Origin: a virus
Direction: 5' to 3' (one strand)
DNA length: 41,414 nucleotides
Virus record (IMG/VR): IMGVR_UViG_3300021959_000107
Span: 1-41,414 of that record
Of the stretch, positions 1,786-40,313 are shown one piece after another. The translations under genes were made by a program, and so were the position numbers. The notes under the pieces were generated by a model that saw only the letters and a list, made by a program, of their open reading frames with translations, did not search any database and was not told the origin of the DNA. Numbering within the stretch: position 1 is the stretch's first letter; each line of letters opens with the position of its first letter.

Positions 1786-2199
1786 ATGAAACTCGATCAA
1801 TTACGAAAAATAATAAGAGAAGAAGTGAGAGCAGCTGTTAAGGAGGAGTTACAAGAAGTAATGAATGAAGCTGTAAAAGCAGCCTCAGCTCCACAGCAAA
1901 GCTATACACAAGTTCCTAAAGGACAACCTAAAAAATGGTCTGTAGGTAAATCAGCTACTTTAGACGAGATGCTATCTGCTACCAGACAAGAGATGACCGG
2001 TCAAGATTACAATAATATTATTGGAGGGTCAGGAGTACATAAACCGAATTTTGCATCTACAATGGCTACACAGATGAGCATGGAAAATAAAGGACCAATG
2101 CCTGGTATAGATATTTCACAACTCGACTTTGTTTCAAAAGCAAAATCTGTATTAGATGCTTCGTATAAGAAAGATAAACAAAAAGCAGGAGTACTTTAA
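1786..2199 (+). CDS. Small protein with helical capsid-targeting-like N-terminus
   Basis: Protein of 137 residues, unknown function. The first 35 residues form a highly charged amphipathic helix starting MKLDQLRKIIREEV and rich in Glu, Lys and Ala. It is followed by a polar, Gln/Ser/Pro-rich linker and a less structured C-terminal half with FVSKAKSVLDASYKKDK. The N-terminus belongs to the MK-x-x-x-L/I-I-x-E type repeated across this window. It is the last gene before gp25, in the baseplate cluster, so it is probably a virion or assembly protein. The start follows an AT-rich motif without a Shine-Dalgarno sequence. Confidence 0.7.
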   Translation: MKLDQLRKIIREEVRAAVKEELQEVMNEAVKAASAPQQSYTQVPKGQPKKWSVGKSATLDEMLSATRQEMTGQDYNNIIGGSGVHKPNFASTMATQMSMENKGPMPGIDISQLDFVSKAKSVLDASYKKDKQKAGVL

Positions 2200-2202
2200 T
2201 AA

Positions 2203-2613
2203 ATGGCGTTCGAAGTAAGAAAAATTAACCCTTTAGATCTACAGCCAAGAAAAGCAATCGGTGTAAGCCTTCCTTTCTCTGGACAGGGAGTATTTAACTC
2301 AACTTACCAAACAAAAGATGCTTTGAAAGCAAATTTAATTAATTTTTTCTTAACAGAAACTGGAGAAAGGTTTTTAAACCCTACCCTAGGTACTAAGTTA
2401 CGTGCTTTACTTTTTGATAGTCTAACTGAAGAAAAAGTGAAGCAGATAGACTTCATAATAAAAGAAGACCTTAAGCTTAACTTTCCTAAAGTGGAGCCAG
2501 TTGAAATAACAACAACTGGCATACCGGATAGAAATACCGTTCAGTTTTACTTAAAGTATAAAGTTTCAGAAACAAACATTGAAGACGAACTTGCAATAAA
2601 CTTTGAACAATAA
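2203..2613 (+). CDS. gp25: Baseplate wedge protein gp25
   Basis: T4 gp25-like baseplate wedge component, a lysozyme-like-fold protein that in contractile injection systems nucleates sheath assembly on the baseplate (established for gp25/W-like proteins). The 136-residue length is typical. The body reads as the family: NSTYQTKDALKANLINFFLTETGERFLNPTLG, given here in two pieces (NSTYQTKDALKANLINFF, then LTETGERFLNPTLGTKL), followed by a helix and a C-terminal beta segment ending in VSETNIEDELAINF. The E-x-G-E-R-x-x-x-P core, residues about 52-60, is the classic gp25 signature. The stop codon overlaps the ATG of gp6, the usual T4-like partner. Confidence 0.93.
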   Translation: MAFEVRKINPLDLQPRKAIGVSLPFSGQGVFNSTYQTKDALKANLINFFLTETGERFLNPTLGTKLRALLFDSLTEEKVKQIDFIIKEDLKLNFPKVEPVEITTTGIPDRNTVQFYLKYKVSETNIEDELAINFEQ

Positions 2614-4427: not shown

Positions 4428-4428
4428 G

Positions 4429-15451: not shown

Positions 15452-15652
15452 ATGGGAGTAAAACTCAAACCTAGTGTAAAAGAATATTTAAAAGATTCTA
15501 GAGGTAAAAGGATTAATCAATTTGTTTGGAAGCACTTTACTCCATCAGGTACTTCAACAGAAGAACTTAAAAAAATGTTCGCTACGAATACTTTCAGAAA
15601 GAAAAAAAACATTATAAAAAGAGAGCTGCTAAAACGAAATGAGACTATCTAA
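15452..15652 (+). CDS. Small basic protein, unknown
   Basis: Protein of 66 residues, strongly basic, with KEYLKDSRGKRINQFVWKHF in the first half and a Lys/Arg-rich C-terminus (TFRKKKNIIKRELLKRN). It is probably nucleic-acid binding by charge alone. It starts one base after the cupin-like gene and its 3' end overlaps the next gene by 14 bases. I do not recognise a family. Confidence 0.65.
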   Translation: MGVKLKPSVKEYLKDSRGKRINQFVWKHFTPSGTSTEELKKMFATNTFRKKKNIIKRELLKRNETI

Positions 15653-15983
15653 TATTATCTTAGCCGAAGGAGTAAAAGTTAGACTTAAACTTTTAACCTA
15701 TGATCAAGTTGCAAAAGCTCTTGGAGATTCTCGTTTTGCTGCTCCATATGCTAGCGATGAGTTAAGACAGGTAAATGGAGAAGATAGTTGGGAGGATTGG
15801 AAAAAAGAAACTCTCAACAAGTATGGTGATATAGAAATTGAATTAGATCCTTCCGCACCTTGGTTCGGTAAAGTAAAAGTGCTGGATAAAGCATTCAACA
15901 AAGCTAAAGCAGATTACATTAAAAGTAAAGCCAGATATTTAGACAAAGAAAGACAAGCAGGTAGAAACTCAGGATTAGATTAA
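15639..15983 (+). CDS. Small protein with capsid-targeting-like N-terminus
   Basis: Protein of 114 residues starting MRLSNIILAEGVKVRLK. The I-L-A-E-G context at residues 7-11 fits the gp21 cleavage consensus and the N-terminal pattern shared across the window. The rest, with YDQVAKALGDSRFAAPYASD and YGDIEIELDPSAPWFGKVKV, is an unknown small domain followed by a basic helix. The 14-base overlap with the previous gene argues for translational coupling. It may be packaged in the prohead (inference). Confidence 0.68.
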   Translation: MRLSNIILAEGVKVRLKLLTYDQVAKALGDSRFAAPYASDELRQVNGEDSWEDWKKETLNKYGDIEIELDPSAPWFGKVKVLDKAFNKAKADYIKSKARYLDKERQAGRNSGLD

Positions 15984-15984
15984 T

Positions 15985-16173
15985 ATGAAGTTATCAAAAA
16001 TCATTTTAGAGAATAAAAAAATTGTTCATAAAGCAGAACTTGATCTCTCAGAACAGGATGTAGAAAAGCTCACTGAAGCTATTACTTCTAAATTAAACGA
16101 TTACTTAGATATCGAAAATGAAGATATTCTTAACGAAACTGTTAAAGCTGCTATTAACGACCTACTAGTATAG
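15985..16173 (+). CDS. Very small protein with capsid-targeting-like N-terminus
   Basis: Protein of 62 residues starting MKLSKIILENKKIVHKAELD, again with the I-I-L-E motif right at the N-terminus, followed by an acidic helical tail (DLSEQDVEKLTEAITSKL). The ATG is one base after the previous stop. No known domain. A short acidic helical peptide with a gp21-type site looks like T4 internal head peptides, but this is only resemblance. Confidence 0.6.
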   Translation: MKLSKIILENKKIVHKAELDLSEQDVEKLTEAITSKLNDYLDIENEDILNETVKAAINDLLV

Positions 16174-17152: not shown

Positions 17153-17931
17153 TAAAGCAAGGTATGAACATTCTTGAACAGAATGAAAAAAACAGACTTG
17201 ATTTTAATCCACAATTAAAACAAATTAACTTTCTTGATAGGAGAGTTTATAAAAGATCAGAAGGAGTATACTATCCGTCCGTAACTACCATACTCCAGTA
17301 TATGCCCAAAAATAAGTTTTTCGAGTCTTGGCTCAAAGACGTTGGGCATAACGCTGATCTGATTATGAGAAGAGCAGGTAAAGAAGGAACACAGGTTCAT
17401 GAAGCTGCAGAAGCTTTAGTTAAAGGAGAAGAGGTATCTTGGATGGATGATTACGGAAATGCAAGATATTCTCAAATAGTATGGGAAATGATTCTTAAGT
17501 TTTATGAATTTTGGTCAACTTATAAACCAGAACTTATATCAACAGAAGAATTCGTTTGGTCGGATAAATATAAGTATGCCGGTACCGCTGACTTAGTAGT
17601 TAAAATGGACGGTGAAACTTGGTTACTTGATATAAAAACATCTAATAGTATACATAAGTCCTATGACTTACAGTTAGCTTCTTATGCTAAAGCTCTAGGG
17701 GAATCCAAAGGTATTGATATAGAAAGAACCGGAATTATATGGTTGAAAGCTCAATCTAGAGGCCCTTCTAAGAAAAAAGGAGTATACCAAGGTAAAGGGT
17801 GGAAAATACTAAACATAGATGATATAGATAAAAACTTTGAATTATTTCAGATGATTTATAAATTATACCAGTTGGAAAACCCTAATACTGAACCTATTTA
17901 TAATAGTTATCCAACATCTTTGAAACTATGA
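17149..17931 (+). CDS. PD-(D/E)XK (RecB/Cas4-type) nuclease
   Basis: Protein of 260 residues. The nuclease core has His84 in GTQVHEAAEAL, Asp148 in AGTADLVVKMD, Asp161 and Lys163 in LLDIKTS, and Gln175 with QLASYAKAL, in the order and spacing of the RecB/Cas4-type exonuclease family. Typical phage roles are recombination or DNA end processing next to replication genes. It starts four bases inside the primase gene (ATGA). An alternative ATG exists at 17164; the first is preferred because of the coupling overlap. No iron-sulfur Cys cluster is visible, which separates it from classical Cas4. Confidence 0.88.
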   Translation: MIKQGMNILEQNEKNRLDFNPQLKQINFLDRRVYKRSEGVYYPSVTTILQYMPKNKFFESWLKDVGHNADLIMRRAGKEGTQVHEAAEALVKGEEVSWMDDYGNARYSQIVWEMILKFYEFWSTYKPELISTEEFVWSDKYKYAGTADLVVKMDGETWLLDIKTSNSIHKSYDLQLASYAKALGESKGIDIERTGIIWLKAQSRGPSKKKGVYQGKGWKILNIDDIDKNFELFQMIYKLYQLENPNTEPIYNSYPTSLKL

Positions 17932-18572
17932 ATAAACTTGTAAAAATTTGTCTCTCTGCAGTTTTTTTCGTATCTTTATATAGTTGTGGAACTTACCAAA
18001 TAAGTACCAAAAACAGAGTAAAGATAGAAAAGATCTTAACTGTAACCTCTACTGGTGATACTTTAGCGGTTCCTTTGAGAGATTTTCAAAGATATAATTA
18101 TGATAGCTTTGATTTTAATTTTACAAGATTTAACTACGGACTCTACAATAACTACTGGAACATCTGGTCATACCCATACTACGGTTGGCCCAATAGAGGA
18201 TTCAATTGGAATTATAGGAACTGGTACGTTAATCCTCCTATTTATAATTATAGTCCTCCTAAAGTACAGCCTAAGATACACATCAAAGGAAGAAGAGGAA
18301 GTGAAATTTTAAACCTTAATAGAGGAAGAAATAATAATGAAACTATCAGAATTAATCCTAGAAGCAACGACCAAACCCAAAGCCGTAATAATGGCAGGAG
18401 GAGCTGGAGCAGGGAAAACCTATCTCCTAAATCAGTTGTCCCTAGACTCTCTAACCCAGTTCAATCCGGACAAATACGTCGAGGATCCAGACCACCCGTA
18501 CTACAACAACCTAGGAGCAGCCAGCCGCCAAGTCAACAAGGACGTAGAAGCGGCAGCGGACGAGAAAACTAG
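17928..18572 (+). CDS. Phage lipoprotein, Bacteroidota-type, with overprinted C-terminus
   Basis: Protein of 214 residues. The N-terminus MNKLVKICLSAVFFVSLYSC is a classical lipoprotein signal with a lipobox ending at Cys20 (L-Y-S-C), so the mature protein should be anchored in a host membrane. Residues about 57-110 are extremely rich in Trp, Tyr, Phe and Asn (NYWNIWSYPYYGWPNRGFNW), followed by GRRG and an Arg/Ser/Pro/Gln-rich disordered tail. Similar W/Y/N-rich lipoproteins occur in flavobacteria, which is my main host clue. The last 236 bases (79 codons) also encode the start of a kinase in another frame. The phage may use it at the cell surface, for example against superinfection; this is inference. 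Confidence 0.75.
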   Translation: MNKLVKICLSAVFFVSLYSCGTYQISTKNRVKIEKILTVTSTGDTLAVPLRDFQRYNYDSFDFNFTRFNYGLYNNYWNIWSYPYYGWPNRGFNWNYRNWYVNPPIYNYSPPKVQPKIHIKGRRGSEILNLNRGRNNNETIRINPRSNDQTQSRNNGRRSWSRENLSPKSVVPRLSNPVQSGQIRRGSRPPVLQQPRSSQPPSQQGRRSGSGREN

Positions 18573-19272
18573 TTTTGTTTGGGACACTACAGCATCTGGA
18601 GTTCAGTTTGATAAAAATCTAGATAAACTAATTAAAAACGGATATGATGTATATATGATAATGGTATATACTCATCCTATGATTTCTTATATTTCAAATT
18701 TTACCAGAGAAAGAAACATTCCTTCTGCATCTATTTTTAGTACCTGGAGAAATGCTTACCAAAAAATTGGTGACTTCAATAAAAAATTAAAAGGAAATTT
18801 TTCAATTTTTGTTAACACTAGAGGAGGAGAATACGATAAAGAGATAGAAGGATTTAATACTGCAGCAAAAAATGGTCCTGCAGGCATAAAAGACTACCTT
18901 CAAAATTATAACGAAAAAACAGGTTACGGTAAATCATCGTTTTTTAAGCCTGTAGAAATGTCTAAGCAGGAAGAAGAAGAGTTTCAAAAAGCTATCCAAG
19001 GTATAGATTACGATAAAGAAAATAGATCCGAAGATAAAGCAATGAAAAATGCTTTCTTGAAATCTTACAGAAAGATAGGAGCAGGTCCTGGAGATGATAA
19101 AATGAGAGATACTCTTAAAAAATACAGAGACGGTAAAGAAAAAAGAGATCAAGATAATGAAGCAGTCTTAGAGAGTATTGCTGAAATGCTATTTTCACCT
19201 GTCTTCCAAGAATTACTTAAGCACTCTACTCCTCAAGAGATAGATAGAGATGTACAAAACTTTTTAGCATGA
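18337..19272 (+). CDS. P-loop kinase (Zeta-toxin-like), with capsid-targeting-like N-terminus
   Basis: Protein of 311 residues. A short leader MKLSELILEATTK (L-I-L-E at 6-9) is followed by the strand AVIMAG and a Walker A motif GGAGAGKT at 21-28. NPDKYVEDPDHPYYNN and VWDTTAS (about 69-75) correspond to substrate-binding and Walker-B-like elements of Zeta-toxin/PNK-type kinases, and RERNIPSASIFSTWRNAYQK provides the lid arginines. The C-terminal 110 residues are charged and helical. The substrate is unknown: Zeta toxins phosphorylate UDP-GlcNAc, while other relatives act on nucleic acids. Its N-terminal part overlaps the lipoprotein gene in another frame; the leader and Walker A lie in the overlap, so the ATG at 18337 is well supported. 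Confidence 0.85.
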   Translation: MKLSELILEATTKPKAVIMAGGAGAGKTYLLNQLSLDSLTQFNPDKYVEDPDHPYYNNLGAASRQVNKDVEAAADEKTSFVWDTTASGVQFDKNLDKLIKNGYDVYMIMVYTHPMISYISNFTRERNIPSASIFSTWRNAYQKIGDFNKKLKGNFSIFVNTRGGEYDKEIEGFNTAAKNGPAGIKDYLQNYNEKTGYGKSSFFKPVEMSKQEEEEFQKAIQGIDYDKENRSEDKAMKNAFLKSYRKIGAGPGDDKMRDTLKKYRDGKEKRDQDNEAVLESIAEMLFSPVFQELLKHSTPQEIDRDVQNFLA

Positions 19273-20471
19273 TAGCATTATATCCAGGAGCATTTAAACC
19301 ACCACATAGAGGACACTTTGAAGTTGTTAAAAGGCTTTTAAATGGAACTCATAATGGTAAGCTATATAGTGCAGACACATACAAAGATGTAGGTACATCT
19401 GCATTAGCTGGTGATAAAGATAAAGTTAAACAAATAAATAAAGTATTAGTCTTTATAGGAGGAGGAGAAAGAAACGGAATATCAAAAAAGGAATCAAAAG
19501 CTATTTGGGATATTTATAAGAAATATCTTCCTGGAGTTGAAATAATGGACGGACAAAAAAATCCAATGTTTGCTTCGAAAGATTATGCTAAAGCAAATCC
19601 TGATCAAGAATTCTACGCTATTGCAGGAATACGAACAGAAGAAGATATACCAGATCTAAGGAGAATAACTACATATAAAAATACTCCTAACGTTGAGGGG
19701 TTAGTTATAGCAGGACCTGGAGAACAAAGAGCTACTAAATTTAGAGCAGCAATACTTTCAGGAAACTTAGATGTAGTAAAAGATTTTTTTCCTTCTGAGT
19801 TAAATAAGGATGAGATTTTAAAAATTTTAAACATGTTAAAACAATCTATCATTTCAGAAGCTATGGAGAATACAATAGAAAATTTATTCTCTAACTGGTT
19901 TACAGAGAACCTTAACGAAGGTTCATCTGGTGCTCCTGTTGCTCCACGCTCTGTAGTACGATCTGATGATAGAGCTAAATTAGTTACTCTCTATAATAGA
20001 ATAAGAAACCAAGTCGAAACCGATACTGTATCTGTAACTTTTCAAGACGATCATATTAGAGTAGGTTTGAAAAATAAAACAGATAACTCAGATTTTGATT
20101 TTACCCCGTATATGGGTTCTATCTTAGAATATATGATAGATGAAGGTTTGAATATTACCCCTTTACCAGAAGTAAAAATAAGAAAAGATGTTACTGAAGC
20201 TTCTGACTTTTTCGGACGTACTGCATATTACGATCCTTCTATAAATGAAATAGTACTATACACACAAGGTAGACACCCTAAAGATATTATGAGATCATTT
20301 GTACATGAAATGATACACCATATTCAAAATATAGAAGGAAGATTAGTTGATGTTAATACATCTAATACAAATGAAGATGAACATTTGCTAGAACTAGAAA
20401 AAGAAGCTTACCTAAGAGGTAATATTACTTTTAGAAACTGGGAAGATAAAATTAAAAATGAATATAAATAA
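19269..20471 (+). CDS. Nucleotidyltransferase-metallopeptidase fusion
   Basis: Protein of 400 residues with two different catalytic modules. Residues 1-190 form a HxGH nucleotidyltransferase: LYPGAFKPPHRGHFEVVKRL with His13 and His16, and GEQRATKFRAAILSGN near 151-165 in place of the ISSTxxR motif. This fold transfers NMP groups, for example in NMNAT or CTP-dependent enzymes. A linker with ISE-A (195-198) and LNE-G (215-218), both fitting the gp21 consensus, is followed by GSSGAPVAPRS. Residues about 226-400 contain SFVHEMIHHIQN with the zincin HExxH at 346-350 and a later Glu in LELEKEAYLRGN as candidate third ligand. It overlaps the kinase stop by 4 bases. The substrates are unknown. Confidence 0.82.
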   Translation: MIALYPGAFKPPHRGHFEVVKRLLNGTHNGKLYSADTYKDVGTSALAGDKDKVKQINKVLVFIGGGERNGISKKESKAIWDIYKKYLPGVEIMDGQKNPMFASKDYAKANPDQEFYAIAGIRTEEDIPDLRRITTYKNTPNVEGLVIAGPGEQRATKFRAAILSGNLDVVKDFFPSELNKDEILKILNMLKQSIISEAMENTIENLFSNWFTENLNEGSSGAPVAPRSVVRSDDRAKLVTLYNRIRNQVETDTVSVTFQDDHIRVGLKNKTDNSDFDFTPYMGSILEYMIDEGLNITPLPEVKIRKDVTEASDFFGRTAYYDPSINEIVLYTQGRHPKDIMRSFVHEMIHHIQNIEGRLVDVNTSNTNEDEHLLELEKEAYLRGNITFRNWEDKIKNEYK

Positions 20472-21981: not shown

Positions 21982-22500
21982 ATGAAAAATTTTAAACAAG
22001 CACTCAAGGAACTTCAAGAAGAAAAACCAGGACTTTGGGCTAATATTAGAGCTAAAAGAGCTAGAGGTGAAAAACCTGCCCATAAAAACTCTAATGCACA
22101 TAAGGATGCAGTAAAAGCCGGTAAGAAGATTAATAAAATGTCTGAAGGTCAAGATTGGCCTCAAGAACTCGAATCAAGATATGGAGAGTTTATCTTTAAA
22201 TTAATTAAGGTAGGATCCGATAGAGCTAAATACTCTTTAGTTGATGTAGAAACTGGAGAAGAAAAAGGAACACCGGTATTTAAATCTGTAGATACTCTAA
22301 AAGCTTTTGCTTCTGATTATATCAAACCTCAAGGCGGTACACAATCTACAAATCTAGGAGAAGATAAATCAGATGCTATCAGATGGTTTGGTAATTTAAA
22401 GTACTACTACCAAAAAGGACTATCAAGCCCAGATTTAAGAGACCCGGCTGATAAAGAAGAATACAAAAGATTAGCAAAAGATTTTTTTAGTAAACTATAA
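21982..22500 (+). CDS. Small protein with capsid-targeting-like N-terminus
   Basis: Protein of 172 residues from the ATG at 21982, starting MKNFKQALKELQEEKPGLW. An in-frame TTG at 21940 would add 14 residues inside the previous gene and has no support. An NIRAKRARGEKPAHKNSNAH segment is basic, and the middle domain (ELESRYGEFIFKLIKVGSDR, then KYSLVDVETGEEKGTPVFKS) looks like a small beta fold. The C-terminal 60 residues are helical. Leader and first domain are common in marine phage proteins with unknown roles. Confidence 0.7.
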   Translation: MKNFKQALKELQEEKPGLWANIRAKRARGEKPAHKNSNAHKDAVKAGKKINKMSEGQDWPQELESRYGEFIFKLIKVGSDRAKYSLVDVETGEEKGTPVFKSVDTLKAFASDYIKPQGGTQSTNLGEDKSDAIRWFGNLKYYYQKGLSSPDLRDPADKEEYKRLAKDFFSKL

Positions 22501-22503: not shown

Positions 22504-23061
22504 GTGAAACTAATTCAACTCATACTTGAAGGTATAACCTACAGAGACCCAAACTTCGCCGAAGAATATGAGGAAGCTCTACGTTATCCCGAGTTTGAGA
22601 AAATGGGTAAACAGGGTTGGATTGATATAGCTAAAAAAGGATACGTTACATCTTACTCTAAGATTAAAAACGTACTAGGAAATGTCGATTTAAATTTCGA
22701 TAGTTTAGAAGAACCTAAAAAACAGAGATTCCAAGACGCATTCAAAAGAGGTACAATCGAAATGTCGATAGCTGTTAAGTTCTCTGACAACGATTATGAC
22801 CTAGTTGCCGGTAATACTAGACTTTCAGGTTTAGTTAAGAACGGTATTGATCCAAAAATTTGGATTGTAGATTTATCTGAAATGCAAGAAAACTACGCCG
22901 ACGGTAAAGTAAAAGGAAAATCTAGACCCGGTAGAGTTAAAAGATCAGGAGCCTCATGTAAAGGTTCTGTTTCCTCTCTAAGAGCTAAGGCTAAAAAGTA
23001 TGGCGGAGAGAAAGGAAAAATGTACCACTGGTGTGCAAACATGAAAGGCGGTAAAAAATAA
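22504..23061 (+). CDS. ParB-like protein with Cys-containing C-terminal motif
   Basis: Protein of 185 residues starting with GTG, three bases after the previous stop. Leader MKLIQLILEGITYRDPNFAE has L-I-L-E-G at 6-10. Residues about 80-125 resemble a ParB/Srx-type domain, with DYDLVAGNTRLSGLVKNGID (GNTR at 103-106) matching the usual nucleotide-binding G-x-x-R box. The C-terminus SRPGRVKRSGASCKGSVSSL followed by KGKMYHWCANMKGG is a separate two-Cys module frequent in marine phages. ParB-like phage proteins can be nucleases or DNA-binding proteins; this one is unassigned. Confidence 0.78.
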   Translation: MKLIQLILEGITYRDPNFAEEYEEALRYPEFEKMGKQGWIDIAKKGYVTSYSKIKNVLGNVDLNFDSLEEPKKQRFQDAFKRGTIEMSIAVKFSDNDYDLVAGNTRLSGLVKNGIDPKIWIVDLSEMQENYADGKVKGKSRPGRVKRSGASCKGSVSSLRAKAKKYGGEKGKMYHWCANMKGGKK

Positions 23062-26460: not shown

Positions 26461-27078
26461 ATGAAAAGAGCTGATCTAAAAAAGTTAATACTAGAAGCAT
26501 ACGAAGAGGTTCTTATAGAGTCCCTTATTGATGAAGTAGAAGATAAACCACAACCAGAAGAAGAGCCTGATACTAAAGCACCTGAAGAAACAGTATTAGA
26601 AGATTCTACGGATACTATACTTTCTAAATTTCCAACTCTTAAAGCTGCTCTAATAAAATTACAGACAGAAGATTTTAAAGAGTTTGTAGACTCTATAGAT
26701 TGGATTTCACCTCGTCCTACTTCTTTTAGAATCAATCTAAAAAATGGACAGGATTATATTTTAAAATGGACAGGTAAAACTTTTGAAGCTCAGATTATGG
26801 GCAAAAGATACTATATTAATAAAATAGACGACTACCAGCAAGCATTAGATAAACTTGCTTTACTCTATCAAGAAGCGCCTATGAAAGGAGCTGGAGAAGC
26901 TGACTTTGACACTGACACCGGAGGCGGTGGCGGAGGAGGCGGAGACTTTCCTGGCGAAGAAGGTGGAGCAGAAGGTGGAGAAGACTTTCCTGGAGGAGAA
27001 GAAGGCGGTGAAGAAGGCGGTGAAGACCTATCCGGAGAGCCAATTGATTTTGAAGCAGGAGAAGAACCAGAAGCATAA
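26461..27078 (+). CDS. Capsid-targeting-like protein with acidic Gly-rich tail
   Basis: Protein of 205 residues starting MKRADLKKLILEAYEEVLIE (L-I-L-E-A at 9-13). Residues about 25-50 are acidic and Pro-rich. The central domain (DSIDWISPRPTSFRINLKNG, then FEAQIMGKRYYINKIDDYQQ) looks like a compact beta domain. From about residue 150 a Gly-rich acidic repeat region begins with units like GGEDFPGGEEGG. The related N-terminus MKRADL reappears in the 77-residue head protein. It is probably virion-associated; the function is unknown. The last base of its stop overlaps the start of the next gene. Confidence 0.75.
   Translation: MKRADLKKLILEAYEEVLIESLIDEVEDKPQPEEEPDTKAPEETVLEDSTDTILSKFPTLKAALIKLQTEDFKEFVDSIDWISPRPTSFRINLKNGQDYILKWTGKTFEAQIMGKRYYINKIDDYQQALDKLALLYQEAPMKGAGEADFDTDTGGGGGGGGDFPGEEGGAEGGEDFPGGEEGGEEGGEDLSGEPIDFEAGEEPEA
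26920..27026 (+). repeat. Gly/Glu-coding low-complexity repeat
   Basis: Tandem-like GGN/GAA codon repeat encoding eight Gly in a row and then two to three irregular copies of GG-x-EGGEDFPG. It is unusually G-rich for this genome and sits fully in frame inside the preceding gene. Such tracts are prone to slippage, so length may vary between relatives. Confidence 0.7.
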
Positions 27079-28022
27079 TGAACGTAACAGACAAGCTATA
27101 TATAGAATGGGCCTGGAGAACTAAAACAGGTGTACCGGATATAAAAAATCCGGAAGATAAAGCTATATTAGATAAGCTTATCTCTGAACTAACAGATAAT
27201 GCTGTACTTGTTGAAGAATCTAATCAATACGATAAGATGATAAAAGACAAGTTTGACGGAGAGATACCTGAAGTTTTTGGGCAATATACTGTTCCTGCAG
27301 GTTCTGGAACTATAAAAGTAGACAGTAGAGATTTAGAAAAATATAAGATAATTTTTAAACTCTCCCCTGATCAGTCTATTGGGCCTGGAGAACTTGCAAT
27401 ATATTGGCTCTACCAGCACCAGAAAAACCCTATAACTACATACGATACTAGAGGTAGTGATAACCCTGATTTGATGATTGGGGATAAAAAAGTAGAAGTT
27501 AAAGCTTACGGTAAACATACTGGTAAGATTAAATTAGGTAAATTTGCAAGTCAAAAAACCAATATTAGAATACTAAACATTATTTTTGGTTTTCATTCCT
27601 TAATGAAAATACTAAATTTAGAAAGTTCTAAAAAAGCTATTACCCCTACTAACTTTAGACCTCAAGAGTTATTAGTAGCTTTTCAAGATATCTTTAAAGT
27701 AAAAGATTCAGGAATACTATCACAAGAAGCTGAAAAGTTTGAAATAATAAAAAGTATCAAAGAAAAATTAGATGCGTTAGATAGTGAACTTAATTCACCT
27801 ACAGATGTAGAAGACGCAGCAAAAGCAGTTTTATCAAGACTTGTTATGAGCAAGTTTTCAACCAAACCAGGAGATGAAGGTTATATAGCTAGCGCTGTTA
27901 TAGAAGGTAACATACATTTCTTTTATATAGATTTTGATAAATTGAGACAAGCTGATCTTTTAAATTTAGTAGAAATAAAAGGAGGTGAAATCGCAGTAGA
28001 TTTTAAATCTATCTTTGGATAA
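27078..28022 (+). CDS. PD-(D/E)XK-type nuclease-like protein before the terminase
   Basis: Protein of 314 residues. GPGELAIYWLYQHQ (Glu105) and then GSDNPDLMIGDKKVEVKAYG, with Asp131 and E140-V-K142, form the pattern of the PD-(D/E)XK nuclease fold as in restriction-enzyme-like phage proteins. The C-terminal half is helical. It starts at the last base of the previous stop and ends 8 bases before the terminase large subunit, the place where a small terminase might be expected. A role in DNA packaging or in resolving DNA ends is possible but inferred; catalytic activity is not shown. Confidence 0.75.
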   Translation: MNVTDKLYIEWAWRTKTGVPDIKNPEDKAILDKLISELTDNAVLVEESNQYDKMIKDKFDGEIPEVFGQYTVPAGSGTIKVDSRDLEKYKIIFKLSPDQSIGPGELAIYWLYQHQKNPITTYDTRGSDNPDLMIGDKKVEVKAYGKHTGKIKLGKFASQKTNIRILNIIFGFHSLMKILNLESSKKAITPTNFRPQELLVAFQDIFKVKDSGILSQEAEKFEIIKSIKEKLDALDSELNSPTDVEDAAKAVLSRLVMSKFSTKPGDEGYIASAVIEGNIHFFYIDFDKLRQADLLNLVEIKGGEIAVDFKSIFG

Positions 28023-31557: not shown

Positions 31558-32412
31558 ATGAAGATTAAGCATTCCAAATTTAAAAATACCGGCTTACTTT
31601 TTGAACTTTTAGTTAAGCAAATTGCCGCCGATACACTCAGTAACAGCCCATCAGCTGCTATTAGTATGATAAAGAAGTATTTCGCCGGTAAAACAACCCT
31701 ATCTAGAGAGTTCAAACTGTATGAATTTATTATAAAAAATAGAAATGTTAGTCAAAGTAAAGCTGAAGCTATTCTTTCGACTATAACAGAAGTTTCTAGA
31801 AAGATAGATCAGAAAAAACTTAAACAGCTAAAATACGAGCTCATTTCTGAAATCAAGGAAAACTATAATATTGAAGACTTCTTTAGTATTCAGGTTAGAG
31901 ACTATAAACCATTGGCTGCATTATACTGTTTACTTGAAGCTCAAAACGCTAGTAACTTAGTTAATCCTCAAATACTAGTCGATAATAAGACTACTCTATT
32001 AGAACATTTAACTTCTAGTTCTCAAGATCAAGATAAAGTAAAAGAAACTATTATTGAAGAGTACGGTAAATATGAAAAAGATTTACGATTACTTACATTC
32101 AAGATCCTATTAGAAAAGTTTAATTCTAAATATAGAGAGCTACTCCCTCAGCAAAAAAATATACTTAGAGAATTTATTACTTCTGTCAATTCTAATACAC
32201 GTTTATTCACAGTAGTAAATGAAGAACTTAAAAGCATTTCTAATGAGGTTAAAAAATTAAGTAGTAAAGTTAAGGACGAAGTAATAAAGATTAAATTAGA
32301 TGAAATATCTAAAAGTATTAAACCTATTGAGAAAAAGGAAAAAATTACCGATAATCATCTAGTAAGTTTAATGCAGTATTATGAACTAGTAAATGAGCTA
32401 AAGAACCTGTAA
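31558..32412 (+). CDS. Conserved head-module protein, unknown function
   Basis: Protein of 284 residues, helical, rich in Lys, Leu and Glu. The opening MKIKHSKFKNTGLLFELLVK followed by QIAADTLSNSPSAAISMIKK is a conserved start that I know from marine T4-like genomes at this position. The last 60 residues look like a coiled coil (ELKSISNEVKKLSSKVKDEV). It lies between portal and prohead genes and ends one base into the next gene's ATG. It could be a prohead core or assembly factor; no specific T4 equivalent (gp67 and gp68 are much shorter) is supported. Confidence 0.75.
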   Translation: MKIKHSKFKNTGLLFELLVKQIAADTLSNSPSAAISMIKKYFAGKTTLSREFKLYEFIIKNRNVSQSKAEAILSTITEVSRKIDQKKLKQLKYELISEIKENYNIEDFFSIQVRDYKPLAALYCLLEAQNASNLVNPQILVDNKTTLLEHLTSSSQDQDKVKETIIEEYGKYEKDLRLLTFKILLEKFNSKYRELLPQQKNILREFITSVNSNTRLFTVVNEELKSISNEVKKLSSKVKDEVIKIKLDEISKSIKPIEKKEKITDNHLVSLMQYYELVNELKNL

Positions 32413-32645
32413 TGAAAAGAGCAGATCTTGTAGTACTAGTTAAAGAAGTAATGCAGGAGTTAGATGAAGCTAACGTTACTAATGCAGGCGGTGCTTCATT
32501 TACCCCCGGTGCAGGAGCTCAATATGCAACTCCTAAAGCATTCGGTAAAGAACATAGAGCAAAAAAGACATTAACTAAAATAGGTTACAAGCAAGTAAGT
32601 AGGCCAAAGAGGCCGTCGCATACGAAAGGATTTGACTATTTATAA
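32412..32645 (+). CDS. Small prohead protein with gp23-like cleavage-site motif
   Basis: Protein of 77 residues. It starts MKRADLVVLVKEVMQELDEA. At Glu19-Ala20 begins ANVTNAGGASFTPGAGAQYA, which aligns without gaps to the segment of gp23 just after its predicted cleavage site (12 of 20 identical). The remainder is basic and ends KPSHTKGFDYL-like (RPKRPSHTKGFDYL). The size and location between portal and protease match T4 gp67/gp68-type prohead core proteins, though sequence similarity to those is not evident. Its last codons overlap a TATTTATA motif, and it overlaps the previous gene by one base. Confidence 0.78.
   Translation: MKRADLVVLVKEVMQELDEANVTNAGGASFTPGAGAQYATPKAFGKEHRAKKTLTKIGYKQVSRPKRPSHTKGFDYL
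32636..32644 (+). promoter_or_regulatory. Candidate late-promoter motif CTATTTATA within a gene end
   Basis: Formed by the last codons (GAC TAT TTA TAA, Asp-Tyr-Leu-stop) of the small prohead gene, 4 bases before the next ATG. The overlap could be coincidental codon content. Least certain because of the short spacing. Confidence 0.2.
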
Positions 32646-34218: not shown

Positions 34219-34797
34219 ATGGCACAATTATTAGTAGACGTTACGCCATTTAGACCTACGATCAAAGAATCGAAAACCAGACCTGGTGTATTCGAGGTTG
34301 AAGGTGTGATGCAAAGAGCAACAGCTCAGAATCAAAATGGTCGTGTTTATTCAAAAGCTATTCTAGAAAGAGAAGCTAAAAAGTACATGCAAGAGTTTGT
34401 TGACAACGGCAATGCTTTTGGAGAATTAGACCATCCAGAATCACCAGTGGTATCTTTAAAGAACGCTTCTCATATTGTAAAAGAACTTTGGTGGAAAGGA
34501 AATGACCTAATGGGTAAAGTAGAACTACTAAATACACCTGCAGGTAACATTGTAAAAGAAATTATTAAGGCCGGGCATACTATCGGTATATCATCTAGAG
34601 GTACTGGATCAGTACAACAAACAAATGAGGGTACTTTAGAAGTTCAACCTGATTTTGAATTAGTATGTTGGGACTTTGTTTCTAATCCTTCAACACATGG
34701 GGCTTTTATGAACCCTATTTCATTAAATGAAGGAAAAGTAAAAGTGTCAAAATACGCTAATCTAGATAATATTATTAACGACATTTTAAGATCATAA
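34219..34797 (+). CDS. gp21: Prohead protease gp21
   Basis: Serine protease that matures the T4-type prohead by cutting after L/I-x-E in scaffold, capsid and internal proteins. From the ATG at 34219 it has 192 residues (T4 gp21, 212). A longer frame reaches 28 codons upstream into the previous gene and is not supported. Catalytic residues: His72 in GELDHPESP, Ser125 (or Ser126) in GISSRGTG, and Asp152 in CWDFVSNPSTHGAF. SLNE-G near residue 168-172 could be a self-cleavage site. The next gene starts after 2 bases, and gp22 and gp23 follow. Confidence 0.93.
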   Translation: MAQLLVDVTPFRPTIKESKTRPGVFEVEGVMQRATAQNQNGRVYSKAILEREAKKYMQEFVDNGNAFGELDHPESPVVSLKNASHIVKELWWKGNDLMGKVELLNTPAGNIVKEIIKAGHTIGISSRGTGSVQQTNEGTLEVQPDFELVCWDFVSNPSTHGAFMNPISLNEGKVKVSKYANLDNIINDILRS

Positions 34798-34799: not shown

Positions 34800-35204
34800 A
34801 TGAAAAACGAGTTTAATTTAAGAAAATTTTTAGCAGAGAACAAAAGACCTGTTCCTGCACAAGTAGAAGAAGAAATTAACGAAGAAGAAGTAGAAGAGTC
34901 TGCACCAGGATTCGAGCATGATTGTGCTGCACATGTAGTACATGAAACTTACGGATATGGTATCTGTTTAGAAGGACAGCACACTTTAGTAGAAAACGCT
35001 GAAGGTAAGCATGTAGTTACTCATTACGACGTATTCTTCAAAGAAGGAAGCAAAACAGTTGAAAACATCCCAGTAGAGGAATTAAAAGTTTTAACTGAAA
35101 GCAATCACGGCCATGCTAAAAATAAAAAGAAAAATGAAGAAGTAGCAGAACTTACTAAAGAAGATGCTTTTAAAAACGAAATAAAAGACCTTTTAGATTC
35201 TTAA
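34800..35204 (+). CDS. Small acidic prohead protein with capsid-targeting-like N-terminus
   Basis: Protein of 134 residues starting MKNEFNLRKFLAENKRPVPA, with F-L-A-E-N at 10-14, one of the best gp21-type sites in the set. An acidic stretch (EEEINEEEVEES) contains a second possible site. A compact middle domain with FEHDCAAHVVHETYGYGICL, then EGKHVVTHYDVFFKEGS, looks like a small beta fold. A basic-acidic C-terminal tail follows. It sits between the protease and scaffold genes and is followed by an intrinsic terminator. Probably a prohead core or internal protein, inferred from position and sites. Confidence 0.78.
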   Translation: MKNEFNLRKFLAENKRPVPAQVEEEINEEEVEESAPGFEHDCAAHVVHETYGYGICLEGQHTLVENAEGKHVVTHYDVFFKEGSKTVENIPVEELKVLTESNHGHAKNKKKNEEVAELTKEDAFKNEIKDLLDS

Positions 35205-35375: not shown

Positions 35376-36428
35376 ATGTCAAACAAAGATTTATTCAAGC
35401 AAGCTATTGCTGAAGCTAAATCTGTAAGAGAAGCTGCTATTGTTAACGCAAAAGAAGCTTTAGAAGAATCTTTGACTCCGCACTTAAAAGATATGTTGGC
35501 TGCTAAACTTCAAGAAATGGAAGATAAATCTGTCGAAGAAGAAGTAGTAAACGAAATCGAAGAAGAGCTAGAAGAAGGAGATTACTCTAAAGAAGAATCT
35601 GTTGAAGAAACAGTAGAAGAAGAACTTACAGAAGTAGAACCAGTTGGCGAAGCTGAAGAAGAAGAAGTTGCTGACGAAGAAGAAGCAGAGGATGATTCAG
35701 AAGAATCTGAAGACGATGCTGAAGCTGTCGAAGGTGACGAAGACTTGGGAGACCTTAGCGTTGACCAGTTTAAAGATCTTATCCGTGACATCATTTCACA
35801 AGAAATGGGACATGGTGAAGAAGAAATCGGTGCTGATTTAGATGCAGGTGATATCGAAGGTTTAGGTGATGAGCCTGAAGCAATCGAAGAACCGGCTGCT
35901 GATGATGAGGAAATCGATTTAGACGAACTTTTAAGAGAACTAGAAAGTATTAGTGAAGAAGAAGTTGAAGAAGGTAAAAAAGAAGAAGTAGACGGAGAGG
36001 TAGTTGAAGAAGATACTGCAAATCAAGTAGAAGCACAATCTGATACAAAAGACCACAACGTAAACGACACTCTTAAGGAAGCTTTAGAAACTGTTGAAAG
36101 CCTTAAACAAGAACTTTCAGAAGTAAATCTATTGAATTCTAAATTACTTTATGTCAACAAAATCTTTAAAGCAAACACTTTATCTGAATCTCAAAAAGTA
36201 AACATTATTGCTGCTTTCGACAAAGCCGAAACAGTAAAAGAAGTAAAATTAGTTTTTGAAACAGTTTCTGAAAATGTAGTTACTACTAAAAAAGAAAACG
36301 TTTCAGAATCTAAATTTAAAGGAATGGCATCTAAAGCTACAGGAACTACTGCTAATAAGCCAGCAGAAAACATTGTACTTTCAGAAGCTGTTCTAAGAAT
36401 GCAAAAATTAGCTGGAATTATTAAATAA
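35376..36428 (+). CDS. gp22: Prohead scaffold/core protein gp22
   Basis: Major scaffold of the T4-type prohead, degraded by gp21 during maturation. It has 350 residues (T4 gp22, 269), with a helical N-terminus SNKDLFKQAIAEAKSVREAA (A-I-A-E-A at residues 9-13 fits the consensus), a very long acidic Glu/Asp-rich middle (about 55-215) and a helical C-terminus (ALETVESLKQELSEVNLLNS). The last residues VLSEAVLRMQKLAGIIK are of the conserved kind at scaffold ends. It is placed just before gp23, with a private terminator-flanked leader. Acidic composition and position make the call secure although sequence identity to T4 is not claimed. Confidence 0.88.
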   Translation: MSNKDLFKQAIAEAKSVREAAIVNAKEALEESLTPHLKDMLAAKLQEMEDKSVEEEVVNEIEEELEEGDYSKEESVEETVEEELTEVEPVGEAEEEEVADEEEAEDDSEESEDDAEAVEGDEDLGDLSVDQFKDLIRDIISQEMGHGEEEIGADLDAGDIEGLGDEPEAIEEPAADDEEIDLDELLRELESISEEEVEEGKKEEVDGEVVEEDTANQVEAQSDTKDHNVNDTLKEALETVESLKQELSEVNLLNSKLLYVNKIFKANTLSESQKVNIIAAFDKAETVKEVKLVFETVSENVVTTKKENVSESKFKGMASKATGTTANKPAENIVLSEAVLRMQKLAGIIK

Positions 36429-36447
36429 TTAACGACTCATTTCAATT

Positions 36448-38037
36448 ATGGAAATTAAAAACCTATTAGAAAGCTCGAATACTTATAAAAGTATGCAAGC
36501 TGACTCTGCTAGATTAGCAGACAAGTGGGCTTCTTCTGGATTGTTAGAAGGTATCGAAGATGCACGTGTACAAGGTAACATGGCAGTAATCTTAGAAAAC
36601 CAAGCAAAACAAATCGTAGCAGAAGCTAACACAACAAATGTAGGTGGTGGAACATTTAGTGCAGGTGCTGGAGAGCAGTGGGCAGGTGTAGCTTTACCTT
36701 TAGTAAGAAAGGTATTCGCTCAAATCGTAGCTCAAGACTTCGTATCAGTACAACCAATGAACCTACCATCTGGTCTAGTATTCTATCTAGACTTTAAATA
36801 CGGAACTGCAACTAACGGTAGAGCTGATGGAGACAACCTATACGGTAATGTTTCTTCTGCTTCTGCTAAAATTGGAGTAGACGAAGAAGTAGACGGAGGT
36901 CTTTACGGTGCTGGTAAATTTGGTTACTCAATCAACCAAAATTCTTTAGCTGTAACTTCAAACGCTACAGGATCTGCAACTTCTGCTTCTATCGCTTATG
37001 AAAACGGAGTTAATCCTGGAGACTTCTACACAGTAACAGTAGATATGTCATCAACTAACTTTGATAGCTTAGGTGTTAGAGCATTCCAAATCTTATCTGG
37101 ATCTACTAACGTAACTAATTACGCTAAGTACACAACAGTATCTGGAAACAACGTTACTTTCGTTGTTAAGAAATCTGATACTACTATTGACAACGTATTT
37201 AACGGATCAGTACTATATCACGTACAGCCAGTAGACAATGACAGAGGAGACTTTGAAGCTGCAGGTACTAACGTAGTAGATAACTCAATCACTATCCCAG
37301 AAATCGACGTAAAACTTGCTTCTGAGGCGATTGTTGCTAAGACAAGAAAACTAAAAGCACAATGGACTCCAGAATTCGCTCAAGATCTTAACGCTTACCA
37401 CAGCATCGACGCTGAGGCTGAGTTAACTTCATTATTGAGTGAGTATATCTCTATGGAGATTGATCTTGAGATCCTAGACATGCTTATCCAAGATGCTAGA
37501 ACTACAGAAAGATGGTCAGCAGAAAACAACAAAGTATGGTTAAACAATGCTTGGTCTACTTCTACTTCTGATTTCTACAATACTCAAGGACAGTGGTTCC
37601 AAACTTTAGGAACTAAAGTTCAAAAAGTATCTAACAAAATCCACCAAAAAACTTTAAGAGGTGGTGCTAACTTCATCGTATGTTCACCAAACGTAGCTAC
37701 TATCCTAGAATCTATTCCTGGATATGCTGCTGCAACTGACGGAGATGCAATGGAATTCAACATGGGAGTACAAAGAGTAGGTTCGTTAGCGAACAGATTC
37801 AAAGTATACAAAAACCCATACATGACTGAGAACATCTTATTATTAGGTTTCAGAGGTTCACAATTCCTAGAAACAGGAGCTGTATATGCACCTTATGTAC
37901 CATTAATGATGACTCCTCTAGTGTACGATCCAGACACTTTCACTCCAAGAAAAGGTCTAATGACAAGATACGCTAAGAAGATGATCAGACCTGAATTCTA
38001 CGGTAAAATCTTTATTTCTGACTTAGCTCAGATCTAA
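36448..38037 (+). CDS. gp23: Major capsid protein gp23
   Basis: HK97-fold major capsid protein, 529 residues (T4, 521). It starts MEIKNLLESSNTYKSMQADS, and a delta-like N-terminal region ends at IVAE59-A60, the predicted gp21 cut. GAGEQWAGVALPLVRKVFAQ then IVAQDFVSVQPMNLPSGLVF is the most conserved gp23 signature, FKYGT follows, and LTSLLSEYISMEIDLEILDM, RGGANFIVCSPNVATILESI and the C-terminal TRYAKKMIRPEFYGKIFISD are further family blocks. Codon use is visibly different from neighbours, with frequent C-ending Asn, Asp, Phe and Tyr codons, as expected for a very highly expressed gene. A strong terminator follows. Confidence 0.97.
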   Translation: MEIKNLLESSNTYKSMQADSARLADKWASSGLLEGIEDARVQGNMAVILENQAKQIVAEANTTNVGGGTFSAGAGEQWAGVALPLVRKVFAQIVAQDFVSVQPMNLPSGLVFYLDFKYGTATNGRADGDNLYGNVSSASAKIGVDEEVDGGLYGAGKFGYSINQNSLAVTSNATGSATSASIAYENGVNPGDFYTVTVDMSSTNFDSLGVRAFQILSGSTNVTNYAKYTTVSGNNVTFVVKKSDTTIDNVFNGSVLYHVQPVDNDRGDFEAAGTNVVDNSITIPEIDVKLASEAIVAKTRKLKAQWTPEFAQDLNAYHSIDAEAELTSLLSEYISMEIDLEILDMLIQDARTTERWSAENNKVWLNNAWSTSTSDFYNTQGQWFQTLGTKVQKVSNKIHQKTLRGGANFIVCSPNVATILESIPGYAAATDGDAMEFNMGVQRVGSLANRFKVYKNPYMTENILLLGFRGSQFLETGAVYAPYVPLMMTPLVYDPDTFTPRKGLMTRYAKKMIRPEFYGKIFISDLAQI

Positions 38038-38062
38038 TCTTACCTTTAGGATGTAGATAAAG

Positions 38063-38089: not shown

Positions 38090-38090
38090 G

Positions 38091-38101
38091 CTATTTATAT
38101 A
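38091..38101 (+). promoter_or_regulatory. Candidate late-promoter motif CTATTTATATA for the neck genes
   Basis: Begins one base after the terminator T-run and ends 12 bases before the gp13 ATG. A promoter is expected here because the terminator would otherwise cut off the neck genes, which strengthens the promoter reading of this motif. Confidence 0.42.
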
Positions 38102-38113
38102 AAACTGTAATAA

Positions 38114-39256
38114 ATGGCCAATATATCTATATGGAATGGTAGCTCAACTTTCACATCCGGGCAGACACCATTCGGATTTTACGATACAGATACTGCTTTT
38201 CAAACTGATGCTGATAAGGTAGCATCTTTTTGTGCTACAAGACTAGGATACCCATTGATGGATGTAGAATTACAATCGGGTTCGCTTTATGCTTGTTTTG
38301 AAGAAGCTGTTACTACGTATGGAAACGAAGTATTTCAATATAAAATAAGGGAAAATTACCTATCTTTAGAGGGCTCAAGCACTGGAAGTTCAGCTAACAA
38401 TAAAGTAATTAATCCTACTTTAGACAGGATAATTAATATTAGTAAGAACTACGGTACTGAAGCTGAAGTGGGCGGATTTGTAACTAAATTTACTGGTTCT
38501 CTAGGAGTAACTGCATCACAACAGCAGTATGATTTAGATCAATGGGCACTTGATAATGGAATTACAGGTGGAATTGAGATAAGAAGAGTATTTTATGATG
38601 CTCCACCTGCAATTTTACGTTATTTTGATCCGTACGCAGGTACTGGCACAGGTATTCAGTCGTTAATGGATGCTTTTGACTTTGGATCATTTAGCCCAGG
38701 GGTAAATTTCTTGTTAATGCCTGCTTCTTATGACATGTTAAAGGTTCAAGCTATAGAATTTAATGACCAGATAAGAAGATCGTCCTATTCTTTCGAATTA
38801 GTTAATAATCAATTAACTATTTTCCCTATACCTACAACAAATTATAATTTAAGATTTGAATACTACAAAGTAAGTGATAAAACACAGATTACTGATGGTT
38901 CTAATACAGGATTGATAACTAATGTAGGAGAAGTACCTTATTCAAACCCTCAATATACTCAAATTAATAGTGTGGGTAGGGACTGGATATATAGATATAC
39001 ATTAGCATTAGCAAAAGAGCTGTTAGCTTATGTAAGAGGTAAGTACCAAACAGTACCAGTACCTGGATCAGAAGCTACTCTCAATCAAGCCGACCTTTTA
39101 ACTGATGCTAGATCAGAAAAAACAGCTTTGATAGAAAATTTACGTGAAATGCTTGATCAGACTTCAAGATCTTCACTTTTAGAAAGAAAAGCAGCAGAAT
39201 CAGACAATTTAAGGAAGACTTTAAGTGATGTTCCTTATACAATTTATATAGGATAG
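38114..39256 (+). CDS. gp13: Neck protein gp13
   Basis: Head-completion (neck) protein that closes the filled head together with gp14 and provides the site for tail joining. 380 residues (T4 gp13, 309). Family signatures are FCATRLGYPLMDVELQSGSL with YACFEEAVTTYGNEVFQYKI near the N-terminus, and SVGRDWIYRYTLALAKELLA with YVRGKYQTVPVPGSEATLNQ towards the C-terminus. The final part (ALIENLREMLDQTSRSSLLE) is helical. It is directly downstream of gp23's terminator and before gp14- and gp15-like genes, as expected for a neck cluster. Confidence 0.9.
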   Translation: MANISIWNGSSTFTSGQTPFGFYDTDTAFQTDADKVASFCATRLGYPLMDVELQSGSLYACFEEAVTTYGNEVFQYKIRENYLSLEGSSTGSSANNKVINPTLDRIINISKNYGTEAEVGGFVTKFTGSLGVTASQQQYDLDQWALDNGITGGIEIRRVFYDAPPAILRYFDPYAGTGTGIQSLMDAFDFGSFSPGVNFLLMPASYDMLKVQAIEFNDQIRRSSYSFELVNNQLTIFPIPTTNYNLRFEYYKVSDKTQITDGSNTGLITNVGEVPYSNPQYTQINSVGRDWIYRYTLALAKELLAYVRGKYQTVPVPGSEATLNQADLLTDARSEKTALIENLREMLDQTSRSSLLERKAAESDNLRKTLSDVPYTIYIG

Positions 39257-39552
39257 TGAAATTAGCGAACATAATATCAGAAATAGAGTTTTTTACCTAT
39301 GAAGGTATGATACAAGTAGTTTATGACGGGGAGAATACTAGTAAAGTTGCTGAATTAATCAGAGCTTTACCTGGTGTTACTACTGTAACTCTTGCTGGTG
39401 ATATGGGAAAAGGTAGAGAAAACTTAAAAGTTAAGCTTATATCACAAAAAAGCGGTACAGAAGCATTTAACGCTTTAAAAAATAATGCTTTAAGTAAATA
39501 CCCTCCTATTAAAGTAGTAAAAATAGGAGACAACACAATAGAAAAGAAGTAG
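39256..39552 (+). CDS. Small protein with capsid-targeting-like N-terminus, between gp13 and gp14
   Basis: Protein of 98 residues with GTG start overlapping the gp13 stop by one base. It begins MKLANIISEIEFFTYEG (I-I-S-E at 6-9), then MIQVVYDGENTSKVAELIRA and LPGVTTVTLAGDMGKG, a ferredoxin-like beta-alpha-beta pattern. Small proteins of this layout occur in neck clusters of marine T4-like phages, with unknown function. It might be a head-associated or regulatory protein. Confidence 0.7.
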   Translation: MKLANIISEIEFFTYEGMIQVVYDGENTSKVAELIRALPGVTTVTLAGDMGKGRENLKVKLISQKSGTEAFNALKNNALSKYPPIKVVKIGDNTIEKK

Positions 39553-40038
39553 ATGTTATTCGGAAGTAATAGAGATTTTAACTTACTAGTAAATATAAAT
39601 AGAGAACTAGTAAAAGATATAGTAGAGCAAGAAATTCTTTATCATAAACTTAGTTTAGAAGATTCTGCTACTAACTTATATGGGGAATCTCTTCAGAAAT
39701 CTTTTTGGAACGCTATTAAACTTAATTGCTTAATAACTAGAGGCGATCAAGTAATTGATATACAGGAATTCGGACCTGATTTAGGTAGAGAAGCATCATT
39801 TGCGTTTATAAGACAGGATTTAGTTGATGTTTCTGTTGTTCCTGAAGTAGGTGATATAGTAGAATGGCACAATGACTACTACGAAGTAGATACAGTAAGA
39901 GAAAATGAGTTATTCTTAGGTAGAGATAAGAGTTATAACCTTGCTACCTACGGTGAAAATTTTGGCTCTTCTCTATCTATAATAGTAGATTGTCATTTAA
40001 CTAGAGCAGATAAAGTAGGACTTAATATAGTAAGATGA
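39553..40038 (+). CDS. gp14: gp14-like neck (head-tail connector) protein
   Basis: Protein of 161 residues, shorter than T4 gp14 (256) but of the type found in marine relatives. NLYGESLQKSFWNAIKLNCL (about 41-60), then FGPDLGREASFAFIRQDLVD and PEVGDIVEWHNDYYEVDTVR, form the conserved connector pattern, including the LYGES motif. It follows gp13 by a small inserted gene, and the next gene overlaps its 3' end by 4 bases. Context strongly supports a neck function; the exact equivalence to gp14 is inferred. Confidence 0.75.
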   Translation: MLFGSNRDFNLLVNINRELVKDIVEQEILYHKLSLEDSATNLYGESLQKSFWNAIKLNCLITRGDQVIDIQEFGPDLGREASFAFIRQDLVDVSVVPEVGDIVEWHNDYYEVDTVRENELFLGRDKSYNLATYGENFGSSLSIIVDCHLTRADKVGLNIVR

Positions 40039-40313
40039 AAATAAAAGATATATTAGAACAAGGATGGGTACAAGATACTCCTAACTTTAAAACAAAAAAA
40101 ACAGGAGTAGATCCTGAAACTGGTACTATATCTTGGGATATAGAATATACTCCTTTAAGGGGTGTAGATAAAGCTATAGACAAAGCCTACGATGAGTATA
40201 AAGACGTATTAAAAAAATATCCGGACGATCAAAAGTTAGAAAAGCTTTTTGATATCTTTGCCTCTTTCAAGAAACAATTTAGAACTCATGTAAGTAGAAA
40301 GTATGGCAGATAA
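40035..40313 (+). CDS. Small protein, capsid-targeting-like N-terminus
   Basis: Protein of 92 residues starting MKIKDILEQGWVQDTPNFKT (I-L-E-Q at 6-9), then a beta-like stretch and a basic helical C-terminus (LFDIFASFKKQFRTHVSRKY). It is nested tightly between neck genes, with a 4-base overlap upstream and an 11-base overlap downstream. The function is unknown. Confidence 0.68.
   Translation: MKIKDILEQGWVQDTPNFKTKKTGVDPETGTISWDIEYTPLRGVDKAIDKAYDEYKDVLKKYPDDQKLEKLFDIFASFKKQFRTHVSRKYGR

Follow-up and report, generated by a model that had tools for sequence, protein, structure and literature searches.

Exchangeable leader peptides resembling capsid-targeting sequences on unrelated proteins of a T4-like phage group

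Unrelated proteins encoded by the IMG/VR record IMGVR_UViG_3300021959_000107 (41,414 bases, analysed at full length and referred to as the window) and by related phages start with short amphipathic leader peptides, which are exchanged between different protein bodies. As judged from sequence comparison, the leaders are probably capsid-targeting propeptides, similar to those of the T4 internal proteins but greatly expanded. We infer that the tagged proteins are packaged, cut and injected. By sequence, the head genes of the window are of the T4 type. Among cultured phages, Flavobacterium phage immuto has the most similar gp23, with 71.6% identity over the full length. The leader-bearing phages form a T4-like group mostly known from environmental DNA. 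The leaders of the window, labelled according to the families A to D described below, and the head genes are as follows.

15639-15668, + strand: leader C MRLSNIILAE of a 114-aa protein, homologues of which begin MKLSDIILAES and MKLSKIILSES
15985-16011, + strand: leader C MKLSKIILE of a 62-aa protein, retained in 9 homologues among the matches listed
18337-18363, + strand: leader C MKLSELILE of a zeta-toxin-like P-loop kinase (PF06414, E 1.2e-13)
20477-20506, + strand: C-like leader MQKLKELLKE of a HAD protein like 5'-deoxyribonucleotidase (phrog_2643, E 6e-21)
21982-22011, + strand: C-like leader MKNFKQALKE before a LWANIRAKRARGEKPAH body
22504-22530, + strand: leader C MKLIQLILE of a protein with the C-terminal domain ENYADGKVKGKSRPGR
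26461-26496, + strand: leader B MKRADLKKLILE of a 205-aa acidic protein
32412-32447, + strand: leader B MKRADLVVLVKE of a 77-aa protein of the head operon
34219-34797, + strand: gp21 prohead protease (Peptidase_S77; PF03420, E 5.2e-35), the proposed cutter of the leaders
34800-34838, + strand: leader A MKNEFNLRKFLAE before an HDCAAHVV domain, between gp21 and gp22
35376-36428, + strand: gp22 scaffold
36448-38037, + strand: gp23 major capsid protein (PF07068, E 2e-81)
36448-36471, + strand: leader-C-like N-terminus of gp23, MEIKNLLE (MEIKNLLES)
39256-39282, + strand: leader C MKLANIISE of a 98-aa protein, two homologues of which have the distinct N-termini MRKLVNEV and MILLEQLLSEV
40035-40058, + strand: leader C MKIKDILE of a 92-aa protein (own sequence only)

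The eleven N-termini singled out by the first-pass annotation are all present at these positions, two of them (22504 and 39256) with GTG start codons. The L/I-x-E ending ascribed to them is strict in ten leaders, while 32412 has V-K-E; the Glu is reached after 8-13 residues. With internal 16-mers of the same proteins as background, [LI]-x-E with the E at residue 8-14 is in excess both in the window (15/47 proteins versus 4.4 expected, 3.4-fold, binomial P 1.5e-5) and in immuto (37/239 versus 18.2 expected, ~2-fold, P 3.2e-5). L/I-x-E is a weak motif, found in 7.6-9.4% of internal 16-mers. P values were lower with a stricter pattern, which is not relied on since it had been shaped on sequences already seen. 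In immuto, the motif clusters near cargo and head genes, being present in 15/34 proteins at 101000-127000 versus 22/205 elsewhere (Fisher 1.1e-5), borders that were set after the N-termini had been read; for a wider region, 77159-133300, the figures are 19/62 versus 18/177 elsewhere (3.5e-4). Immuto leaders distant from the head cluster occur at 1803 (A), 24569 (C-like) and 25061 (D).

N-terminal leaders are missing from some neighbouring proteins of the window, such as 19269 and 21015. The 19269-20471 protein joins a nucleotidyltransferase-like N-terminus to an HExxH metallopeptidase-like C-terminal part, both with weak Pfam matches only, and the linker ENLNEG between the two parts fits a gp21 site. 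The N-terminal helix at 1786 was rejected as a tag: the gene is in a tail operon, the helix runs past residue 12, one homologue was found, and the helix is probably a coiled coil.

The leaders had initially been taken for one shared leader. The motif does recur on many proteins, but comparison with immuto and about 400 IMG/VR loci resolved at least four families, ruling out a single peptide. The consensus sequences, each with [LIV]-x-E, are F[DN]LKKFLVENKLT (A), MKKSELxxLIKE (B), MKLSxIILE (C) and EEFxRMQKLAGIITE (D). Leader classes were assigned by regular expressions, that of C being the loosest. Of the window leaders, 34800 belongs to A, 26461 and 32412 to B, and the other eight to C or to C-like leaders. 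ORFs were taken from the longest start, unless the leader Met lies inside. Since leaders recur on unrelated proteins in the immuto proteome (239 CDS), IMG/VR was scanned with patterns for A, B and D. The family A pattern, M-[ED]-N-F-[DN]-L-K-K-F-L-V-E-N-K-L-T-x-N-S, retrieved at least 120 stretches. In 80 of these at least 120 loci, FLVENKLT is present in 95 ORFs, at residue 8-10 in 80/95, and precedes 81 different body sequences, some of which are homologous; L070, L106 and L122 are probably chance matches. Leader A extends for ~24 residues up to a second L-x-E. The family B pattern MKKSELxxLIKE also retrieved at least 120 stretches, with 94 distinct N-termini over all loci. The family D pattern ILSEEFxRMQKLAGIITE retrieved 117 stretches; its distinct contexts over all loci are N-terminal in 98 cases, C-terminal in 12 and internal in 11. 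Family C, the commonest in the window, accompanies the kinase locus (46 loci). The 39 leader-selected records considered below hold up to 7 A, 6 B and 3 D copies each.

Among 50,697 phage records, the leader A and D peptides hit four immuto records only, at E up to 10. The search of cultured phages with leader B was empty at E 10, yet it missed the B leaders of immuto itself, and thus lacks power. In genome_contigs (84,980 species), the exact leader D pattern was absent (0 stretches), and the leader A pattern had one match, in a MAG contig. An S77 match in this MAG is on contig C55, which the accession suffix suggests to be the contig of the leader A match. A literature search on four peptide strings found none of them. 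The leaders might also be a product of chance or composition, late proteins having helical N-termini rich in K, L, I and E. This is highly improbable and was already disfavoured: the motif alone is weak and 3/81 contexts of leader A are apparently fortuitous, but a leader of ~24 residues recurs on dozens of bodies, leaders are swapped, and genome_contigs yielded no D and a single A match, the latter in a genome with S77.

Exchange of leaders is seen when the bodies are compared. The 461 leader ORFs found at 402 loci were sorted by their bodies into single-linkage clusters at E<1e-3, yielding 189 clusters (A 57, B 72, C 16, D 62), in line with the original remark that the tagged proteins are otherwise unrelated. 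More than one leader family is found in 14 clusters (13 without family C), and each of the six possible family combinations is represented among the 160 cross-family pairs. For instance, a 23-member body family bears all four leaders (A 11, B 6, D 4, C 2), and the homology between L293 (leader A) and L208 (leader D) starts at the predicted cut site. Both alignments start at most 15 residues from the leader end in 53/160 swap pairs, and at most 30 residues from it in only 79/160. Two or more different tagged bodies are present in 107 of the 291 leader-ORF loci, and two or more leader families in 58. The motif search of the N-termini of immuto and relatives, which had been suggested as a check, thus found leaders shuffled between unrelated bodies.

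Bodies encoded in the window were also found behind other leaders, and the leader is not merely part of the normal domain in all homologues, as seen for the 20477, 21982 and 22504 proteins. Homologues of the 20477 nucleotidase keep the body and start with MKNSIVDLLEA, MGKLVDLLEA or, in immuto, MKKVMGNLADLLLEE. The 21982 body (LWANI) follows leader B in L014, L123, L025 and L015, and other N-termini in L059 and L093. The C-terminal domain of 22504 (ENYADGK) is found behind other leaders in L018, L009, L295 and L299. Neither the 21982 nor the 22504 protein had a cultured-phage match at E 0.001. Homologues of 26461 start with MKKADLKNIILE or MKKSKFKKIILE, or have the body fused within larger proteins. 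The 34800 body carries leader A in L073 and lies within larger proteins in L069, L116, L018 and others; the 135 cultured-phage records matched by this protein are all named Synechococcus, Prochlorococcus, Cyanophage or Marine. No homologue of 40035 was found among the relative loci searched.

A second leader is present in L032, and 11 further second leaders were detected. Such leaders were seen inside or at the end of proteins in L032 (14118-15170), L061, L063, L064, L074, L121, L141, L144, L167 and L377. Where the second leader is of family A, ALQE or LKEG often stands before it, and cuts at both ends might therefore release the peptide. A further N-terminal module is seen in the 27078-28022 protein, encoded before the terminase: a conserved N-terminal module of ~38 residues, MNVTDKLYTEWAWRTKSGVPDINNPEDKAIL, precedes diverging bodies in 29 ORFs, and is located at residue 10 in 28 of them and at residue 20 in L005.

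Of the 189 cluster representatives, 100 with bodies of at least 110 aa were compared with Pfam and matched 19 families, including zeta toxin, superoxide dismutase (SOD), PolyA_pol, HD and GNAT. With PHROGs, 28 families were matched, 20 of 25 among the matches listed being without function. Several A and D bodies are short and have no assigned function, and the term enzyme cargo is therefore appropriate for only a minority of them. In L028 and L035, MKLSKLILENKE (tag C) is followed by a complete iron/manganese SOD. Of 154 PDB matches of the L028 SOD, 60 are among those listed, and these start at query residue 12-15, with one exception at 9. The two-domain protein of L032 has a leader at its start and a second one, MKMSDILLEA, immediately before the SOD domain. 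Phage-encoded SODs with head-type leaders were noted in L028 (14677), L035 and L241. A literature search for superoxide dismutase, virion and capsid targeting jointly found no report. A ~200-aa family with hydrophobic stretches, found in L056, L078, L098, L145, L149, L263, L363 and L402, carries all four leader families and is possibly an ejected membrane protein.

In the structure predicted for the 18337 kinase, pLDDT is <50 at residues 1-8, and the first strand of the folded core starts at residue 15. Within the kinase leader, I7 and E9 do not vary in an alignment of 23 sequences, made up of the window kinase and its homologues from 22 of the 46 loci, which share 50-82% identity with it. The start of the kinase gene (18337-19272) is overlapped by 236 bases by a lipoprotein-like ORF (17928-18572) on the same strand in another frame.

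As the Glu was part of the DNA patterns used to retrieve A, B and D, its conservation was tested only in loci fetched otherwise. In these, family A has E (residue 9) in 19/21 and L two residues before (residue 7) in 18/21, and family B has E in 45/49 and I or V two residues before in 49/49. Residues beyond the leader E vary. P3 is V in 14/49 family B leaders, as it is in gp23, and cutting specificity may thus differ from that of T4. The window does encode gp21, as had been stated. In the alignment with T4 gp21, it retains the two residues taken to be catalytic, namely the GEL[ND]HP histidine and the G[VI]SSRG serine.

S77 was detected in 29/39 leader-bearing records (53-297 kb), a rate that does not come from a random sample as these were hand-picked from the matches listed, versus 9/49 neutral records (Fisher 1.3e-7). 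The ten leader records with no detected S77 include eight of <100 kb, and records can be fragments. The similar-sized records L225, L230, L340, L183 (immuto), L028 and L106 were left out of the 39; S77 is present in L028 and absent from L106, the latter being a chance match with no leader. The neutral records (55-369 kb) were chosen regardless of leaders by one conserved motif (ThyA), and are all those of at least 55 kb in the best 80 of at least 120 ThyA stretches. Leader B and D patterns were found in 0/49 neutral records, including the nine that bear S77; hence, S77 phages do not need B or D.

Two links to core head proteins, absent from the first-pass annotation, were identified in gp22 and gp23. 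The core of leader D corresponds to the C-terminal motif of gp22, as the window gp22 ends with RMQKLAGIIK (36375-36425, VLSEAVLRMQKLAGIIK). R[MWFY]xxLA[GN][IL] lies at most 16 residues from the C-terminus in 27/28 gp22 homologues, the strict RM form being found in 11/28, and the motif is close to the C-terminus also in immuto and Mel-JY01. The second link is the leader-C-like start of gp23. The gp23 proteins of the clade have V-x-E at a place which, by position and T4 data, is presumably their own cut site, and this fits the V at P3 of B leaders. In addition, the stretch that follows the predicted cut in the 77-aa protein (32412-32645; ELDE|ANVTNAGGASFTPGAGAQYA) is similar to the N-arm of gp23 (IVAE|ANTTNVGGGTFSAGAGEQWA), and the common motif recurs in relatives.

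Docking and cutting are separable, as the window gp22 C-terminus ends in K and not in xxE. The leaders might accordingly dock on the prohead core or scaffold and stay uncut, the conserved Glu being part of the docking surface. We consider this unlikely. The identity of leader D with the gp22 C-terminus agrees with it, and the cutting of the leaders is something that we infer here; however, four unlike families all have [LIV]-x-E followed by variable residues, and the window gp21 keeps the His and Ser. Alternatively, the leaders could target the proteins elsewhere, to the baseplate or neck, the host membrane or an infection compartment, given that amphipathic helices are generic docking elements, that the four-leader body family has hydrophobic stretches, and that not all leader genes map to the head cluster. 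We regard such destinations as quite improbable, since leader D is a scaffold peptide, a B leader starts a head-operon protein with a gp23 N-arm motif, and leaders are associated with the head protease S77.

Capsid-targeting propeptides are already in print for T4. T4 capsid-targeting sequences (CTSs), as described in the available part of PMC9026906, comprise 10-19 residues and are removed by gp21 at L/I-X-E. The T4 proteins IPI, IPII and IPIII are similar to those of the clade in having, in a phage with gp21, a short N-terminal peptide that ends in [LI]-x-E and is common to unlike bodies (PMC9026906, available part). IPII and IPIII both begin with MKTYQEFIAEA; compared by eye, the clade leaders resemble this peptide in general pattern only. 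In contrast to T4, where one CTS type is found on three small internal proteins, the clade has four or more families, which are found on enzymes and in several genes per phage, have internal and C-terminal copies, and partly match core proteins. To this, the present comparison adds that the families are several, that enzymes exchange them, that copies exist inside proteins, and that leader D matches the scaffold.

The cytidyltransferase SSM1_190 of cyanophage S-SM1 (annotated T4-LIKE GC 190) begins with MKKFSAFLNEA, which is closer to the T4 peptide. T4-GC190 was detected in purified S-SM1 virions, which is independent support by experiment, and SSM1_190 thus resembles the clade proteins as an enzyme with a CTS-like start, here reported in virions; N-terminal cutting or mapping of T4-GC190 is not reported in the available part of that paper (PMC3037559). 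None of the window proteins is clearly homologous to SSM1_190 (best blastp E 0.007). In phiKZ and SPN3US, many head proteins are cut after Glu, as prohead-protease substrates would be in the clade, and phiKZ propeptides contain several cut sites (PMC9026906, PMC10052503, available parts). The phiKZ motif is S/A-X-E, unlike that of the clade, and the same parts describe no interchangeable leader family for phiKZ or SPN3US. Among the 32 Mel-JY01 N-termini listed, at least two C-like starts were found, MGKLINILLSE (a cytidylyltransferase-like protein) and MKIKKIIFE (at 14084), and no A, B or D leader was seen by eye.

If the leaders are capsid-targeting propeptides, each would dock on the core or the inner shell during prohead assembly, with family D imitating the peptide in which gp22 ends. 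Gp21 would then cut after the Glu, and the freed protein would remain in the head and be delivered with the DNA. Among the papers listed by literature searches, none dealt with virion proteomics or N-terminal mapping in immuto or the rest of the clade. The earlier proposal of a phage-wide packaging tag that loads cargo into the prohead agrees with the leader swapping, the conserved Glu, the S77 association and the identity of leader D with the scaffold C-terminus, but there are several tag families, and some tagged proteins (32412, gp23) look like head-assembly proteins and not cargo. More tentatively, the leaders may constitute a general cargo-loading system, in which docking peptides that can be interchanged and excised are shuffled among enzymes, every one of them corresponding to a core head protein (D to the gp22 C-terminus, C approximately to the gp23 N-terminus, B approximately to the small head-operon protein), which would be loaded and injected at infection. 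Cargo would include the P-loop kinase, nucleotidases, a tRNA-nucleotidyltransferase-like enzyme and superoxide dismutase.

If this is true, a sequence rule would predict which uncharacterised proteins of the clade are injected, and superoxide dismutase and the P-loop kinase would be predicted virion cargo. This reading also suggests that a protein becomes cargo by acquiring a peptide of ~10-24 residues, which in one family is the terminal peptide of the scaffold. Such tags might serve to load chosen proteins into phage heads.
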